Below are positions 4,707 through 29,301 of a stretch of DNA of 38,581 nucleotides, in pieces. The stretch covers positions 1-38,581 of the IMG/VR virus record IMGVR_UViG_3300028571_000052, one strand, 5' to 3'. Every line of letters starts with the position of its first letter. Positions within the stretch are counted from its first letter, which is position 1. The DNA is from a virus. Both the position numbers and the translations under genes were made by a program. A model generated the notes under the pieces. That model did no database searches. It saw only the letters and a program-made list of their open reading frames with translations, and was not told where the DNA came from.

Positions 4707-5477
4707 CTAATCTCCCAGATTAGAGACGGGGTCTGTAACCACCTCAACGCTCAAAGCCTTGCGTTCTGCGAGGCTTATTTTTTTACCCTTATACATACCA
4801 GCGTTTAATTCGTCTATTTTGCTAAATGGTAATATTGGGACTGTTATTTTAAAGGTTTTGTCTATTAGGTATATGTAGCGTAGTTGATAGCCAATTAATA
4901 TTTTACCATTAACCTCATTTACATATTTATTAAAATCATATTTACCTTTTGTTAAATCATAATATGACCTACCATTTAATTCATTTCGTTTTAATAGCGG
5001 GTTACTTTCCAAAGTCATTTTATGAATTACATCACCGTTTGGCAATGCGCAGGTATTTGAATTTTTTACAATGCCTGATAAATAAAACCCACTCGCCCTA
5101 TATATTGTACCGTCCCCACACTGTGTGCCATCGCTAAAACTTAAAATCCATTTAATATGCGGGGCGTTTTTTTTAATTAGCTTAATCGCAATAGATATGC
5201 AACGGCTTTCTGAGTACTTTGGTAAATATTCATCAAATGCCATTCTGTTAAGTTCCAACATTTCATTCCATAGGCTTGGTTGAACTAATCCTAAAACCTT
5301 TGATTTATCCAACGGGCTGCCAAAACTCATTACCCCGTGCAACATATTATCCAAAAAGCAGCCAAAATGCAAACGACTATTGTTTACTACCTTGCCGCTG
5401 TAATGATGCCTTTTTACAAACTCATTAGCAATCTTAGCCGGTATAACCTTTACTATTATTTCCTTTGCCCTGCCCAT
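4707..5477 (-). CDS. Mom-like GNAT-fold DNA-modification protein
   Basis: 256 residues resembling the phage Mom family, GNAT-like enzymes that convert adenine in DNA to N6-carbamoylmethyl-adenine and protect from restriction. Visible signatures: HHYSG at 24-28, GVMSFG near 48-53, ELNRMAF near 75-81, SESR at 89-92, and the family hallmark FSDGTQCGDGTIYRASGF at 114-131. The gene overlaps the ParB-like gene by 22 bases and precedes terminase, a common phage neighbourhood for this family. Family identity is remembered, not searched; the exact chemistry in this phage is inferred. Confidence 0.8.
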   Translation of the reverse strand: MGRAKEIIVKVIPAKIANEFVKRHHYSGKVVNNSRLHFGCFLDNMLHGVMSFGSPLDKSKVLGLVQPSLWNEMLELNRMAFDEYLPKYSESRCISIAIKLIKKNAPHIKWILSFSDGTQCGDGTIYRASGFYLSGIVKNSNTCALPNGDVIHKMTLESNPLLKRNELNGRSYYDLTKGKYDFNKYVNEVNGKILIGYQLRYIYLIDKTFKITVPILPFSKIDELNAGMYKGKKISLAERKALSVEVVTDPVSNLGD

Positions 5478-6043
5478 TGCATAATTATTAAGTATAGTGC
5501 ATTGCCATTGCTGTTTTCATTTCCCATTGTTTCAGCATACTTGTACTCGTCCGTTTGCTTAATATCCGATAAAGCGTTTTCTATTTGCACGGCCTGTTCA
5601 TTTGCCAACGTGAACGTCATTTGTTGAAACGGGGCTTTATCTCCATCGGGCAAACTAAAATCAGTTCCAAAAACATCGGCCCACACAGGTAACTCCAATC
5701 CCCATTCTTGCAGCTTTTCACCATCCCATTGATTAGCCAAAATATCCCAATCCCACTCACCAAATCCTACATTATCCTTTACAATAAACTCTTGCTTTTG
5801 GGCTTCTGTTAACTCACTGGCTTGCTTTACCCACTCGCTAGGTAGTTCTTTATAGCCTAAATGTTTAAGAGCGTTAAAACGCATATTACCGCCTAAAATT
5901 ATATTGCCCTCATCAATTATGATAGGTCGCAATACCATCATTTGGGGAAAGTCTTTAATGCTTTTGCATAGCTTCTCAAACTGATTGTCTTTTATTAATC
6001 GCGGGTTTGCCGGGTTTGGCTTTAAGGTATTTATTTTAACCAT
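5456..6043 (-). CDS. ParB/Srx-fold N-terminal domain protein
   Basis: 195 residues. The N-terminal 70 residues have the ParB-like layout: INTLKPNPANPR at 4-15 followed by NIILGGNMRFNALKHLGY at 47-64, in which GGNMR replaces the usual GGHRR-type box. In phages such proteins often sit next to DNA-modifying enzymes and may be nucleases or DNA-binding adaptors; here the partner is the overlapping Mom-like gene. The C-terminal half is Trp- and acid-rich and not recognised. Two promoter-like boxes lie just upstream. Confidence 0.8.
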   Translation of the reverse strand: MVKINTLKPNPANPRLIKDNQFEKLCKSIKDFPQMMVLRPIIIDEGNIILGGNMRFNALKHLGYKELPSEWVKQASELTEAQKQEFIVKDNVGFGEWDWDILANQWDGEKLQEWGLELPVWADVFGTDFSLPDGDKAPFQQMTFTLANEQAVQIENALSDIKQTDEYKYAETMGNENSNGNALYLIIMQWAGQRK

Positions 6044-8151: not shown

Positions 8152-9015
8152 TTAAAATAGCTGTTCGTACAATTCTATTATCTTAAATATCTCATATGGT
8201 ATTTGAGGTACAACTGCGTTACCGTAGCTTTTTATGCTTTCTGTTCTCCATTTAGGAAAGGTAATAGCGTCCAGTTCGCGGGAAATCCCATCATTTCCTC
8301 CGCAAACTGCGGGTTTAGTTGGGAATTTGTACCATGTTGCAATATCTCCCCCAAATTGCTTTTCCCCCGGTCTGTTTTCGCTGCTCTGCTGTCTTGGGCT
8401 TTTAGTGTTGGCAGTAGCCCATTCAAAGCCATGTCTATAATATTTAAACTGTGTGAAGTTCCATTTTTGGCTATCCTCCGGTTGGTTTCTGTTAGCACTA
8501 CTTTTGAGTGTGGCGTTTCGTGAGTTGTTGGAGTAGGCAACAAACCAAACTCTGTCGCGGCGATGCGGTGCGTCTTTGGCACAAGCTGGAAGTATATACG
8601 CCTGTACTTCGTACCCTTGGTTTTCCAAGTCAGTTTGCACCTCGTTGAAAACCAATCCCCCGTTCCAATTAACAAGCCCGTAAACGTTTTCGCCCACAAC
8701 CCAACGTGGTTTAATTTCTCTAATTGCTCTAAGCATTTCGGGCCACAAGTGGCGCTCATCTTCTTTGCCTTTGCGTTTGCCGGCAAGTGAGTAGGGTTGG
8801 CAAGGAAATCCCCCTGTAAGGATGTCAATTCGTCCGTTCCAAATAGTAAAGTCTGTTTTTGTGATGTCTCCATAGCTTTCGGCTTTTGGCCAGTAGTATT
8901 TTAAAATACGTTGATTAAATTCTCCCCATTCACAATGAAACATATTATCCCATCCCATCCACTCGGCGGCTAGGTCAAAACCACCAATACCTGAAAATAA
9001 ACTTGCGTGTGTCAT
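8152..9015 (-). CDS. dcm: Dcm-type DNA (cytosine-5) methyltransferase
   Basis: 287 residues with the C5-methyltransferase motifs in order: motif I SLFSGIGGFDLA at 5-16, motif IV GGFPCQPYS at 68-76 with catalytic Cys72, motif VI ENV at 109-111, motif VIII HRRDRVWF at 151-158 and motif X GNAVVPQ at 265-271. Residues 160-260, the target-recognition region, are Asn/Ser-rich. It probably methylates the phage genome against restriction. Almost the whole gene (codons 48-261) is overlapped by a second 213-codon frame with protein-like content. It follows DnaB by three bases. Confidence 0.93.
   Translation of the reverse strand: MTHASLFSGIGGFDLAAEWMGWDNMFHCEWGEFNQRILKYYWPKAESYGDITKTDFTIWNGRIDILTGGFPCQPYSLAGKRKGKEDERHLWPEMLRAIREIKPRWVVGENVYGLVNWNGGLVFNEVQTDLENQGYEVQAYILPACAKDAPHRRDRVWFVAYSNNSRNATLKSSANRNQPEDSQKWNFTQFKYYRHGFEWATANTKSPRQQSSENRPGEKQFGGDIATWYKFPTKPAVCGGNDGISRELDAITFPKWRTESIKSYGNAVVPQIPYEIFKIIELYEQLF
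8232..8873 (-). CDS. Nested ORF inside the methyltransferase gene (LPTP / MMGFP protein)
   Basis: 213 codons, ATG to stop, wholly inside the dcm gene on the same strand in the +1 frame. The translation looks real: LLFGTDELTSLQ at 9-20, GLLPTPTTHETPHSK near 112, and LNPQFAEEMMGFPANWTLLP near the C-terminus. The closing motif LNPxFxxEMMGFPxxWT matches a phage protein type I remember being found with Dcm enzymes. The conserved methyltransferase motifs lie in the other frame, so both strands of evidence point to dual coding. Expression is unproven, no ribosome site is obvious, and the frame could be a database-propagated overlap. Confidence 0.5.
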   Translation of the reverse strand: METSQKQTLLFGTDELTSLQGDFLANPTHLPANAKAKKMSATCGPKCLEQLEKLNHVGLWAKTFTGLLIGTGDWFSTRCKLTWKTKGTKYRRIYFQLVPKTHRIAATEFGLLPTPTTHETPHSKVVLTETNRRIAKNGTSHSLNIIDMALNGLLPTLKAQDSRAAKTDRGKSNLGEILQHGTNSQLNPQFAEEMMGFPANWTLLPFLNGEQKA

Positions 9016-9018
9016 AAT

Positions 9019-10473
9019 TTAAAATGGTACATTTTTAGTTAGTTTATGCTGGTAGTCGACATCAAAATTAGTATAAGGTGTAATAGCCCCGGTGCTTGGT
9101 ATATCATTTAAGCCAGTAAAACGTTGGTTGGCCCCGTTGAATAGTAACTCTATTATTCCTGTTTGCCCCATCCTGTATTTAGCAACTATCAATTCAGTAT
9201 AGCCCGCAGGGTACGCTATGCCATTTTCGTCCAATTGTATGTGGTAATAGTCAGGCCGGTATAAAAAGCACACCATGTCAGCATCCTGTTCAATAGCCCC
9301 CGAACCTCTTAAATCGGATAGCATAGGCCGTTTGTCGGTTCGGCTTTCTAAGGCCCTGCTAAGTTGACTAAGTGCTATAACAGGCACTTCCAAATCTTTG
9401 GCCATTAGTTTTAATATTCGGCTGATGTACTCAAGGCGAGAGTTCTCAAGTGAGTTAGCGGGCAACTCAGGGGCAGGCATTAGTTGTAGGTAGTCAATAA
9501 CAACCATGCCTATACCTATTGTACTTTTTAGCCGGTTGCATTTGGCCCATATCTGCCGGGGGCTGTTGGTGGCTTTATCGTCAATAAACAGCCCGATGTT
9601 TGCCAACGCCCCCATGTGGTTATTTTTAAGAGTTATTTGCTCATCCGTTAATTTGCCTTTGATAATATCCTCTAGGTTTATGTTGCACTCATCAGCGATA
9701 AGACATTGCATAACCTCAATGTCGCTCATTTCTAAACTAAAGAACGGAACATTGTGTTTTAGCTTTGCAGCACCCTTGGCTATCCCCCTTGCCAAAACTG
9801 ATTTACCCATACCGGGGCGGGCGGCTATGTATGTTAAAGTTCCCGGCTTAAATCCGTTAATTACCCTATCTATTGAACCGATGCCACACATTACCCCGGT
9901 AGTTCCCCCGTTAGCCAATAATTCCGAAGCATCGTATTCCTGTTTAACAAGTTCGGCAAACCTCATCATTTCATTTTCGCTCTCGATGGCAGTTGATAAA
10001 ATTGATTTTAAGGCCGCTTCCGCTTCTTCTACCGCTTCAAAACAATCTTTAAGGTCGTTATACCCATTCCTTACCATATCGTAGCCTATGGCTATCAATT
10101 TTCGCTGAAATGATTTTTGATGTAAAATAAGGGTGTGGTATTTAATATTGGCAGACGAACCCACCCTGTTAGTTAGAGATGCCACATATACCGAACCCCC
10201 AGCAGTCGTTAACTCCTTATCAGCCCTTAATTGATTTGGTACGGTAAGTATATCAACCTTTGCCCTATCAGCGTGTAATTTCAATATTGCCTTGCATATT
10301 TCAACATGGGCCGGGGCCGAGAATATATCGGGCGATAATAACGAGCCAATCTCAAGCAGGCACTTATCCTCAAGCATTACAGCCCCTAGTACAACCTTTT
10401 CAAGTTCTACATCAGCCGGCGCAACATTGCCCTCAAACTCAGCAAAGTTTATGTATTTAGTATCTTTTCTCAT
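9019..10473 (-). CDS. dnaB: Replicative DNA helicase, DnaB family
   Basis: 484 residues, near the usual DnaB length. An N-terminal helical domain (about 15-115) is followed by the RecA-like motor: Walker A RPGMGKS at 219-225, Walker B MVVIDYLQLM at 323-332, ALSQLSR at 367-373 and SDLRGSGAIEQDAD at 386-399. It would unwind the phage origin. The ATG overlaps the end of the replication protein gene, which carries the iteron array, so initiator, origin and helicase are together as in lambda O-P. No phage polymerase is present, so host replication enzymes are presumably recruited. Confidence 0.96.
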   Translation of the reverse strand: MRKDTKYINFAEFEGNVAPADVELEKVVLGAVMLEDKCLLEIGSLLSPDIFSAPAHVEICKAILKLHADRAKVDILTVPNQLRADKELTTAGGSVYVASLTNRVGSSANIKYHTLILHQKSFQRKLIAIGYDMVRNGYNDLKDCFEAVEEAEAALKSILSTAIESENEMMRFAELVKQEYDASELLANGGTTGVMCGIGSIDRVINGFKPGTLTYIAARPGMGKSVLARGIAKGAAKLKHNVPFFSLEMSDIEVMQCLIADECNINLEDIIKGKLTDEQITLKNNHMGALANIGLFIDDKATNSPRQIWAKCNRLKSTIGIGMVVIDYLQLMPAPELPANSLENSRLEYISRILKLMAKDLEVPVIALSQLSRALESRTDKRPMLSDLRGSGAIEQDADMVCFLYRPDYYHIQLDENGIAYPAGYTELIVAKYRMGQTGIIELLFNGANQRFTGLNDIPSTGAITPYTNFDVDYQHKLTKNVPF

Positions 10474-27357: not shown

Positions 27358-28009
27358 AAATTTTATTTATTCGTTCAGTTTGTTCTATATCTCGCCCGTA
27401 GTTACGGCTGTACCATGTATGGGTGCAAAATTTCACCTCGTTAAAAATCAACTCGGTAGTCAAACCATCTTTCCAAACATAAGGCTGCAAGTTTAGGGGG
27501 TTGCCTTTAGCGTGCAGGTAGTAAAACAGTCCGTTAAATGGCTCTGTATTATTATTGTCAAAGGCATATTTTGTTCGCGGCTTAGTAGTTTTTTTAATGT
27601 TAACAAACGTAAACGCATCAATATCTTCGCGGGTTGAAAGCCCTATGGCATAGGTACACATTGCAACATTAAACACATTGAAAAATGGGTTATGTACCGC
27701 CCAACTATGGGTACGTCCCGGGTGTACTCCCCCATCAGGCATACCCGCATGGCTAATTGAATTTTGCTTAACGTATTCTACTAACTCCAATACCTTGCCC
27801 CAATCTCTTATAAAGCAATCCTCATCCAAATTAATAGCATACGTTACGCCGTTATCTTTGGCGTGTTGTAACATCCAATACAGGTAGTCTGCGGATTGCA
27901 CAAAACCATCAAAGCCGGTAGCCCGGTACTTAGTAACCTCATAGGGTATAAACTCGCACATACGCTCCCACAAGTCAGCGTTGGCACTCCGCGTATATAC
28001 TGCTATCAT
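27323..28009 (-). CDS. GT-A-type glycosyltransferase-like protein
   Basis: 228 residues. A DxD-like motif YAINLDEDCFIRD at 58-69 (D62-E-D64), preceded by an AVYTRSANADLWERM start. Contains YLYWMLQHAKDNGVTY and an active-site-like FNGLFYYLHAKGNPL. It probably transfers a sugar from a nucleotide donor. Overlaps neighbours on both sides, so it belongs to one operon with the GT2-GT7 protein. Confidence 0.7.
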   Translation of the reverse strand: MIAVYTRSANADLWERMCEFIPYEVTKYRATGFDGFVQSADYLYWMLQHAKDNGVTYAINLDEDCFIRDWGKVLELVEYVKQNSISHAGMPDGGVHPGRTHSWAVHNPFFNVFNVAMCTYAIGLSTREDIDAFTFVNIKKTTKPRTKYAFDNNNTEPFNGLFYYLHAKGNPLNLQPYVWKDGLTTELIFNEVKFCTHTWYSRNYGRDIEQTERINKIYEYCRNRRMAW

Positions 28010-29301
28010 ATACTAACTGTAATTTTTAATGTGTTTAGGTATATCCACCTTTTCTTTATTACCTTGTACTCGCAGTTGCTTACCCCGTCTTTAGTAAAGT
28101 CTTTATCATTAGCCTTGGCCAGCAATTCGCGGTTTTTATCTAAATGCGAATACTCGCGCCCGTGAGCGAGGCTGTTAAACCTACATTCCCGCCTTAATAT
28201 GGCATGGCCAAACTTTTTAACCCTTAAAGCTATTTCGTCATCCTCGGCACCCCATCCCCAAAACTCGTTTGAATACCCATTGATGTTATAAAAAGTTTCT
28301 TTATTAAATATTGTTACTCCACCAAAATAATCAGGGTATGGCATTTTATTTTCAAACTGTGAGCATTGCGTAGCTATATGGCAAGGCTGCATACTGTATT
28401 TATAGTCTGCTGTTACCGGCAACATATCAACATCGTGAAAAATATAATAGTCGCAATCTAGGCCTTCTAAAAATCCTATATTTAACAGTTTGGCTCGGTT
28501 AAATGGTTTCCCTTTTTCTTGTTCTACTACTATTACTAAATAGTTGCTATAGCCTTGTTTTGATAAATAGTGCCTCAATGCAGGCATAAATTTATTTAGG
28601 TGTTGTTCCCTATCCCGGTATGGTATTACAAAGCAAGCGCGTTGCCTTTGTTCTTTTAGTGTATGGGATATGTTATGCGCGTTGCCTATATGCTTAACGT
28701 ACCCATCACCCGGAAGGCATACCGCTCTAAAGCCGTTTTCTTTATATGCTTTACCTATTTCCGCCTCTGCCGCTGCAAATGATTTGCCGGTTGAGTAGTT
28801 AGTATATAAGCCAATTTTTTTATAGTCTGCAAGCCTACGCAAGCCGGGGTTAAAAGTAAAGCCATGCCACCGCCCGGCATGATTTAATATTGGTGATTTA
28901 TAGCCTTTGTAATCCTCTAACGGGTGCCCGTTGGTATCATTTTCAGCCCTAATCCAAACCTGCATTATATTAGTTTCTGCCTCTAACACCTTAAGGCTTT
29001 CTTCAATAAACCCCCCATTGTAAAACTCCCAATCTTCCTCGCAATGGAATATATAAGGCGTTTCTGCCAATGAATAGGCTTTATCAATGCTGGGGGCTTG
29101 CCCAAGGTTGGTTTCGTTATCAAGCCAAACAATGTTTTTATCATGATACAGTTCTTTAAGTGCATCATTAACGCCGGGTATTCCACCATCTTCAACCACT
29201 ATTATTTTAGATATAGGGTAGGTATTAAATTCGAAAAAGCTGGTTAGGGTTTGTTGCAGCAACGCCGGGCGGTTACATGCGGTTATTACTACTGTTACCA
29301 T
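28006..29301 (-). CDS. Bifunctional glycosyltransferase (GT2 plus GT7 galactosyltransferase-like)
   Basis: 431 residues, two domains. Residues 1-215 are GT2-like: VVITACNRPALLQQTL at 4-19, VVEDGG at 35-40, HCEEDW at 86-91. Residues 222-390 resemble beta-1,4-galactosyltransferases (GT7): FVIPYRDRE at 224-232, FNRAKLLNIGF at 267-277, FHDVDMLP at 288-295 (DVD at 290-292), YFGGV at 325-329 and WGWGAEDDE at 348-356. These GT7 motifs are close to those of animal enzymes. It would build a branched or two-sugar glycan. Coupled to both neighbours. Confidence 0.85.
   Translation of the reverse strand: MVTVVITACNRPALLQQTLTSFFEFNTYPISKIIVVEDGGIPGVNDALKELYHDKNIVWLDNETNLGQAPSIDKAYSLAETPYIFHCEEDWEFYNGGFIEESLKVLEAETNIMQVWIRAENDTNGHPLEDYKGYKSPILNHAGRWHGFTFNPGLRRLADYKKIGLYTNYSTGKSFAAAEAEIGKAYKENGFRAVCLPGDGYVKHIGNAHNISHTLKEQRQRACFVIPYRDREQHLNKFMPALRHYLSKQGYSNYLVIVVEQEKGKPFNRAKLLNIGFLEGLDCDYYIFHDVDMLPVTADYKYSMQPCHIATQCSQFENKMPYPDYFGGVTIFNKETFYNINGYSNEFWGWGAEDDEIALRVKKFGHAILRRECRFNSLAHGREYSHLDKNRELLAKANDKDFTKDGVSNCEYKVIKKRWIYLNTLKITVSI

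Follow-up and report, generated by a model that had tools for sequence, protein, structure and literature searches.

A phage dcm gene with a second, selected reading frame: evidence for a C5-cytosine methyltransferase probably divided between two overlapping frames

Introduction

Can a phage gene for a cytosine methyltransferase encode a second protein in another frame, and if it does, what is that second protein for? The question is raised by the dcm gene of a virus record of 38,581 bases, analysed here over its whole length and called the window, in which dcm lies on the minus strand between a gene for a DnaB-like helicase (9019-10473) and small genes. The original prediction had pointed to a 213-codon frame on the same strand, in the +1 phase, over dcm codons 48-261; the frame is there exactly as described, with LNPQFAEEMMGFPANWT near its end (Table 1). 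We call alpha the product of the main frame and beta that of the nested one.

The reading that we favour, with a probability of roughly 0.84, is that this single gene specifies through two overlapping frames the two subunits of a C5 methyltransferase, the modules of beta reading the target. Alpha would bind S-adenosylmethionine and hold the catalytic cysteine, its catalytic domain comprising motifs I-VIII and X; beta would have its own start, an ATG at codon 48 inside dcm, and would provide the DNA-recognition domain, in which LPTPxAxD specificity modules precede motif IX. The two chains would then assemble and methylate specific sites in the phage DNA, presumably to counter host restriction. 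In this scheme the free beta polypeptide, the assembly of the subunits, the reading of the target by the modules and the evasion of restriction are what we infer.

Results

Two reading frames in one methyltransferase gene

Table 1. Features of dcm and of its nested frame, in window coordinates
Feature	Positions	Strand	Size, extent or basis
dcm, putative alpha subunit, C5-cytosine methyltransferase motifs I-VIII and X	8152..9015	-	287 aa
Putative beta subunit, nested +1 frame	8232..8873	-	213 aa; dcm codons 48-261; ATG within alpha codon 48
Beta N-terminal region, residues 1-110, over the alpha catalytic motifs	8544..8873	-	alpha-dominant, doubly constrained
Alpha catalytic motif IV GGFPCQP, residues 68-74	8794..8814	-	sequence
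Beta module 1, LLPTPTTHE..., beta residues 111-152	8418..8543	-	region conserved in beta frame; boundaries set by eye
Beta module 2, LLPTLKAQD..., beta residues 153-185	8319..8417	-	region conserved in beta frame; boundaries set by eye
Motif IX LNPQFAEEMMGFPANWT in beta frame, beta residues 186-202	8268..8318	-	
Alpha codons 161-260, open through modules and motif IX, largely predicted unfolded	8236..8535	-	
Alpha motif X SYGNAVVPQ, residues 263-271, directly after the beta stop	8203..8229	-	sequence; conserved in alignment

Alpha is a member of PF00145 (1.3e-44, over residues 1-180 only) and has its motifs I, IV (PCQ), VI (ENV), VIII and X; it also matches phrog_363 (4e-70), and its alignment with M.HhaI is confined to residues 5-164. 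Motif IV is invariant at almost every position among 60 aligned alphas. Motif IX is absent from the alpha polypeptide and present in the +1 frame: the claim that the C5-methyltransferase motifs are intact in the main frame thus fails for this motif, and the tie that the original prediction drew between the end of the nested protein and Dcm proteins is sound, this end being their motif IX. Beta matches phrog_1008 (9e-23), as do all 74 of 74 aligned betas.

Elsewhere in this genome, a Mom-like DNA modification protein (phrog_1384, 6e-47) is encoded at window positions 4707-5477 (-), adjoining a ParB-like gene (5456-6043), so that the phage may carry a second DNA modification. A glycosyltransferase-7-like protein (PF02709, PF13733) is found at 28006-29301 (-).

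Both frames are under selection

In the window gene the longest +1 frame has 222 codons, against a mean of 97 after synonymous codon shuffling, and the same stretch should contain 5.8 stops (p = 0.0025, the lowest value that 400 shuffles can give). The +1 frame goes beyond the synonymous shuffles at p<0.01 in 88 of 91 homologous genes, most of which were found with the nested protein as query, a choice that favours open frames; the +2 frame does so in two of them, both with frames that switch after an indel. The test was therefore redone on genes found through dcm, and in all the intact ones the +1 frame was open, for 187-296 codons.

The use of identical codons for the same amino acid gives an observed to expected ratio of 1.20 for codons 1-47, 1.75 for codons 48-260 and 1.20 for codons 262-287; the 19 genes found through dcm, taken by themselves, give 1.19, 1.50-2.13 and 1.22 for the same three segments. 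The edges of this synonymous constraint coincide with the start and stop of the nested frame (codons 48 and 260), and constraint is back at the one-frame level at the motif X segment of alpha. The original prediction thus survived both of the tests that it had named for its own refutation: the nested frame of the homologues, searched for stops, is kept open, and synonymous change in the main frame is reduced in the overlap and nowhere else. The dual coding is real and maintained, with selection acting on each of the two frames.

At a few loci both frames are shifted or alpha is broken. The alpha and beta frames shift jointly in mid-gene, as after an indel or a sequencing error, at three loci (L084, L110 and L111), and alpha-type genes of Bacteroides xylanisolvens (L268) and Parabacteroides massiliensis (L272) have two in-frame TGA codons.

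Motif IX lies in beta

Betas have a common layout: a conserved N-terminal half, one to six LPTPxAxD modules, and the end LNPxFVxEMMGFPxxWT, which we identify from its sequence as motif IX of C5 methyltransferases. Canonical C5 enzymes have this motif, as RRLTPRECARLQGYPDSY or RRISMREAARLQSFPDNF, in the main frame and are devoid of a long +1 frame. C5 genes were classified at 30 loci of 31 bacterial genomes, seven being left unclassified. Among the 23 others, the main frame supplies motif IX in nine, where there is no nested ORF, and lacks it in 13, where a nested ORF ends in this motif; one fits neither type. The genomes were chosen for holding the nested type, a choice that does not affect the contrast from gene to gene inside genomes. 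Beta matched nothing in Pfam, in NCBIfam or, by profile search, among PDB sequences. As the PDB offers no sequence match for beta, the identity of motif IX rests on the short motif, on its position and on the fused and contrasting relatives. These data show a division of the C5 motifs between the two frames, beta carrying motif IX and alpha lacking it.

With the nested protein as tblastn query, 70 phage records were recovered, chiefly of Paenibacillus, Lacticaseibacillus and Bacteroides phages, and at the seven loci examined among them (7/7) the protein is encoded +1 inside a dcm; some depositors annotated the nested frame, once as 'g62 internal gene'. Viral contigs contain at least 425 matching stretches, and bacterial and archaeal genomes 124, mainly in Bacteroidota. 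Nested frames of the same type occur in phage N15 (gene 58), phage epsilon15, a Klebsiella phage and a Microcystis phage, and on plasmids of Shinella and Methanomethylovorans; in a GC-rich Rhodoplanes case the nested frame is not significant taken alone. The dual-frame arrangement is kept by hundreds of related phages.

Other phages arrange the same parts differently. Backyardigan, Ryadel and Lilbooboo, actinophages of Mycobacterium and Streptomyces, have pairs of neighbouring genes that are both annotated 'DNA methylase'; modules, motif IX and motif X are all in the second one, and these pairs look like the alpha and beta of one C5 methyltransferase. In Cornucopia, ArcusAngelus, prophiT49-1 and Inspectinfecti, motifs I-VIII, the modules, motif IX and motif X follow each other in a single chain, which in the first three matches phrog_116, a methyltransferase family, over about 208-491 together with phrog_1008. 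A different C5 methyltransferase, that of Streptococcus phage Javan565 (L283:1486-2193), contains a 204-codon +1 frame (p=0.002) with LSDILEEQVDERYFLS and is perhaps a second kind of frame-split enzyme.

Each frame leads in its own part of the overlap

Outside the overlap, the ratio of third to first position differences in alpha is 2.9 and 2.15; it is 2.1 in codons 50-160, with third-position differences lowered from 0.380 outside the overlap to 0.263. The ratio flips to 0.59 over the segment of motif IX, where identity is 0.80 for beta versus 0.72 for alpha. Across the 1,073 matched pairs of the module region, alpha differs by 0.396, 0.138 and 0.103 at its codon positions 1, 2 and 3: alpha position 1 being the most variable, the free position is the third position of beta. 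Amino-acid identity in this region is 0.85 for beta, 0.51 for alpha and 0.56 for the unused third frame. In the catalytic half, substitutions therefore obey the main frame, and in the modules as in motif IX they obey the nested one.

All the matched module pairs are in phase (1,073/1,073) and 671 of them are displaced; therefore modules move between positions and genes. When 217 genes were shuffled synonymously for beta, 975 alpha stops were expected in the module region and none was observed, a count that partly leaves out genes with a broken alpha (alpha is short in only 8 of about 258); the same test on the unused third frame gave 2,108 stops observed versus 2,106 expected. It is the beta frame that codes for the modules, and alpha is held open through them, as it must be read to their far side to reach motif X. 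From this we draw a further proposal, to which we give an even chance: the modules would be dual-frame cassettes, specifying targets in the beta frame and free of stops in alpha, that are gained, lost and swapped, making a multispecific, recombining methyltransferase in which the overlap limits the cassettes that are acceptable.

These patterns also decide the fate of the simplest explanation, according to which the nested frame is non-coding, its lack of stops being accidental or a side effect of the Dcm protein sequence, with phrog_1008 an annotation artefact. The +1 translation of the conserved GFPCQPFS does yield a recurring peptide, so that part of the similarity between betas may be a by-product of alpha. 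Nevertheless the shuffling null is rejected in nearly all the genes, the edges of constraint match the ORF, the modules and motif IX evolve by the codon positions of the beta frame, and actinophages encode beta as a separate gene or as an in-frame fusion. The chance open frame is rejected on these grounds, and we leave the non-coding reading a negligible probability.

Start and predicted structure of beta

Of 223 genes, 170 have an ATG at codons 47-50, versus 94 expected, and seven have no ATG near the expected start of beta. The nested frame is mostly closed just upstream of this start, the last stop being at -10 codons in 93 genes and at -2 in 35, and in N15, epsilon15 and one further locus (L113) a beta ATG has a Shine-Dalgarno-like sequence ahead of it. 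The ATG enrichment, the upstream closure and the Shine-Dalgarno-like sequences together favour a beta made as its own polypeptide from a separate initiation. They bear directly on another way of expressing the nested frame, programmed frameshifting from alpha, which would yield an alpha-beta fusion and no free subunit. Such a product would resemble the single-chain fusions of the same parts in actinophages and would suit the seven genes deprived of a nearby ATG; on the other hand a frame usually closed a few codons upstream, a constraint that starts at the ATG, and the enrichment and Shine-Dalgarno-like sequences just mentioned make frameshifting improbable.

AlphaFold2 models the catalytic fold of alpha and its C-terminal helix region with confidence, the catalytic fold matching M.HhaI over 166 columns; residues 184-250 are predicted unfolded, with a pLDDT of about 37-50. 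Beta alone is modelled with a pLDDT of 62.5 and a pTM of 0.32, residues about 40-100 being the best (pLDDT about 70-85), and so poor a model of the single chain would be no surprise if beta needs its partner. A fold search of the PDB with the beta model found no match; in BFVD there was one match below 0.001, named 'putative cytosine-specific methyltransferase'.

The lack of a confident fold match, added to an N-terminal half that has no known homologue outside the family, could suit a beta that is a real protein but a separate one, a regulator or an anti-restriction protein overprinting dcm and not a subunit of the enzyme. Against this, motif IX sits in beta precisely where the main frame lacks it, several phages join the parts into a single chain, and alpha is predicted to have no folded recognition domain of its own; we regard a separate function as quite improbable and retain the two-subunit enzyme.

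A stop codon inside motif IV of related alphas

In 33 viral contigs (L324-L356, e.g. L324:6778-6837 (+)) alpha is interrupted in motif IV, which reads GGN TTY CCN, then TAA or TGA, then CTA or CCA, then TGY CAR, the stop and CYA standing directly before the catalytic cysteine codon TGY. The 32 contigs long enough to compare form 17 clusters below 85% identity, and no other insert was found at that site of motif IV among the loci examined. In nearly all the interrupted contigs a stem, usually of 10-17 bp, ends at the proline codon before the stop; the same measure in 248 normal genes gives 3-9 bp. The arms of the hairpin covary, with 12 cells changed on both sides versus 3.0 in shuffles, and a covariation score of 0.197 versus 0.079 in shuffles and at most 0.054 when slid. 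Downstream of the stop, alpha is still conserved in the alpha pattern.

A 2016 review considered a natural in-frame stop hop as not known (PMC5009743). The hairpin-CCN-stop-CYA element is a candidate for one: the ribosome would leave the proline codon, skip the stop and land on CYA (on CUA by a G-U pair), which would restore GGFP-CQPYS exactly. Alternatively the stop may be passed by readthrough, with two extra residues, or the element may act at the DNA level. The stop-CYA element is absent from the window gene.

Discussion

C5 methyltransferases split between frames are not without precedent, M.EcoHK31I being one enzyme of this kind already described. It targets YGGCCR, and M.AquI, another split enzyme, targets CYCGRG. 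Lee is said to have found in 1995 that the small subunit of M.EcoHK31I is nested in the gene of the large one, in another frame. A third comparison is with the multispecific C5 methyltransferases of SPbeta-group Bacillus phages, which hold several short recognition modules in a single chain and a single frame: the system of the window, which uses two frames, bears a resemblance to them in its several short modules.

In M.EcoHK31I the large subunit has motifs I-VIII and X and the small subunit motif IX (PMC3404938). The window repeats this division, with an alpha that has I-VIII and X without IX and a beta that has IX, nested at 8232-8873 in 8152-9015, and from this likeness of sequence it probably works like M.EcoHK31I and is of its kind. 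Nevertheless the target-recognition domain of M.EcoHK31I was assigned to the large subunit—a published prediction, not a demonstration (PMC3404938)—whereas the modules of the window are in the beta frame. By analogy with that assignment, the alpha segment could mainly read the target in a two-subunit enzyme where beta just gives motif IX. We hold this highly improbable: in the module region the identity of alpha is no better than that of the unused third frame and far from that of beta, and the alpha segment is predicted unfolded. Reading by the beta modules is thus preferred. Since these modules are conserved in beta and not in alpha, the window system is not a plain member of the M.EcoHK31I type; compared by description, its modules, presumed specificity arrays of one to six shuffled between phages, are unlike M.EcoHK31I.

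M.AquI also has its C5 motifs split between two polypeptides (PMC3404938). The alpha/beta gene pairs of actinophages are arranged like it, the second gene holding both IX and X; the window differs from it, as alpha keeps motif X and the whole of beta lies within the alpha gene, in another frame. PHROG 363 and PHROG 1008, both named 'DNA methyltransferase', are read here as two parts of one enzyme. In the open-access literature searched we found no earlier report of widespread nested C5 subunits.

Hundreds of phages keep this long overlap of two frames on one strand, and each frame leads in a part of its own, which makes it a clean natural case of dual coding. Besides, many phage 'Dcm' genes seem to lack motif IX and the recognition domain, and some phages have two entries named 'DNA methylase'. 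A two-frame enzyme would explain both, since half of it is lost when a gene caller accepts a single frame for each stretch of DNA. For anyone cloning such a gene to determine its specificity, both frames would be needed; and the swappable modules would offer a route to reading the methylation specificities of phages.
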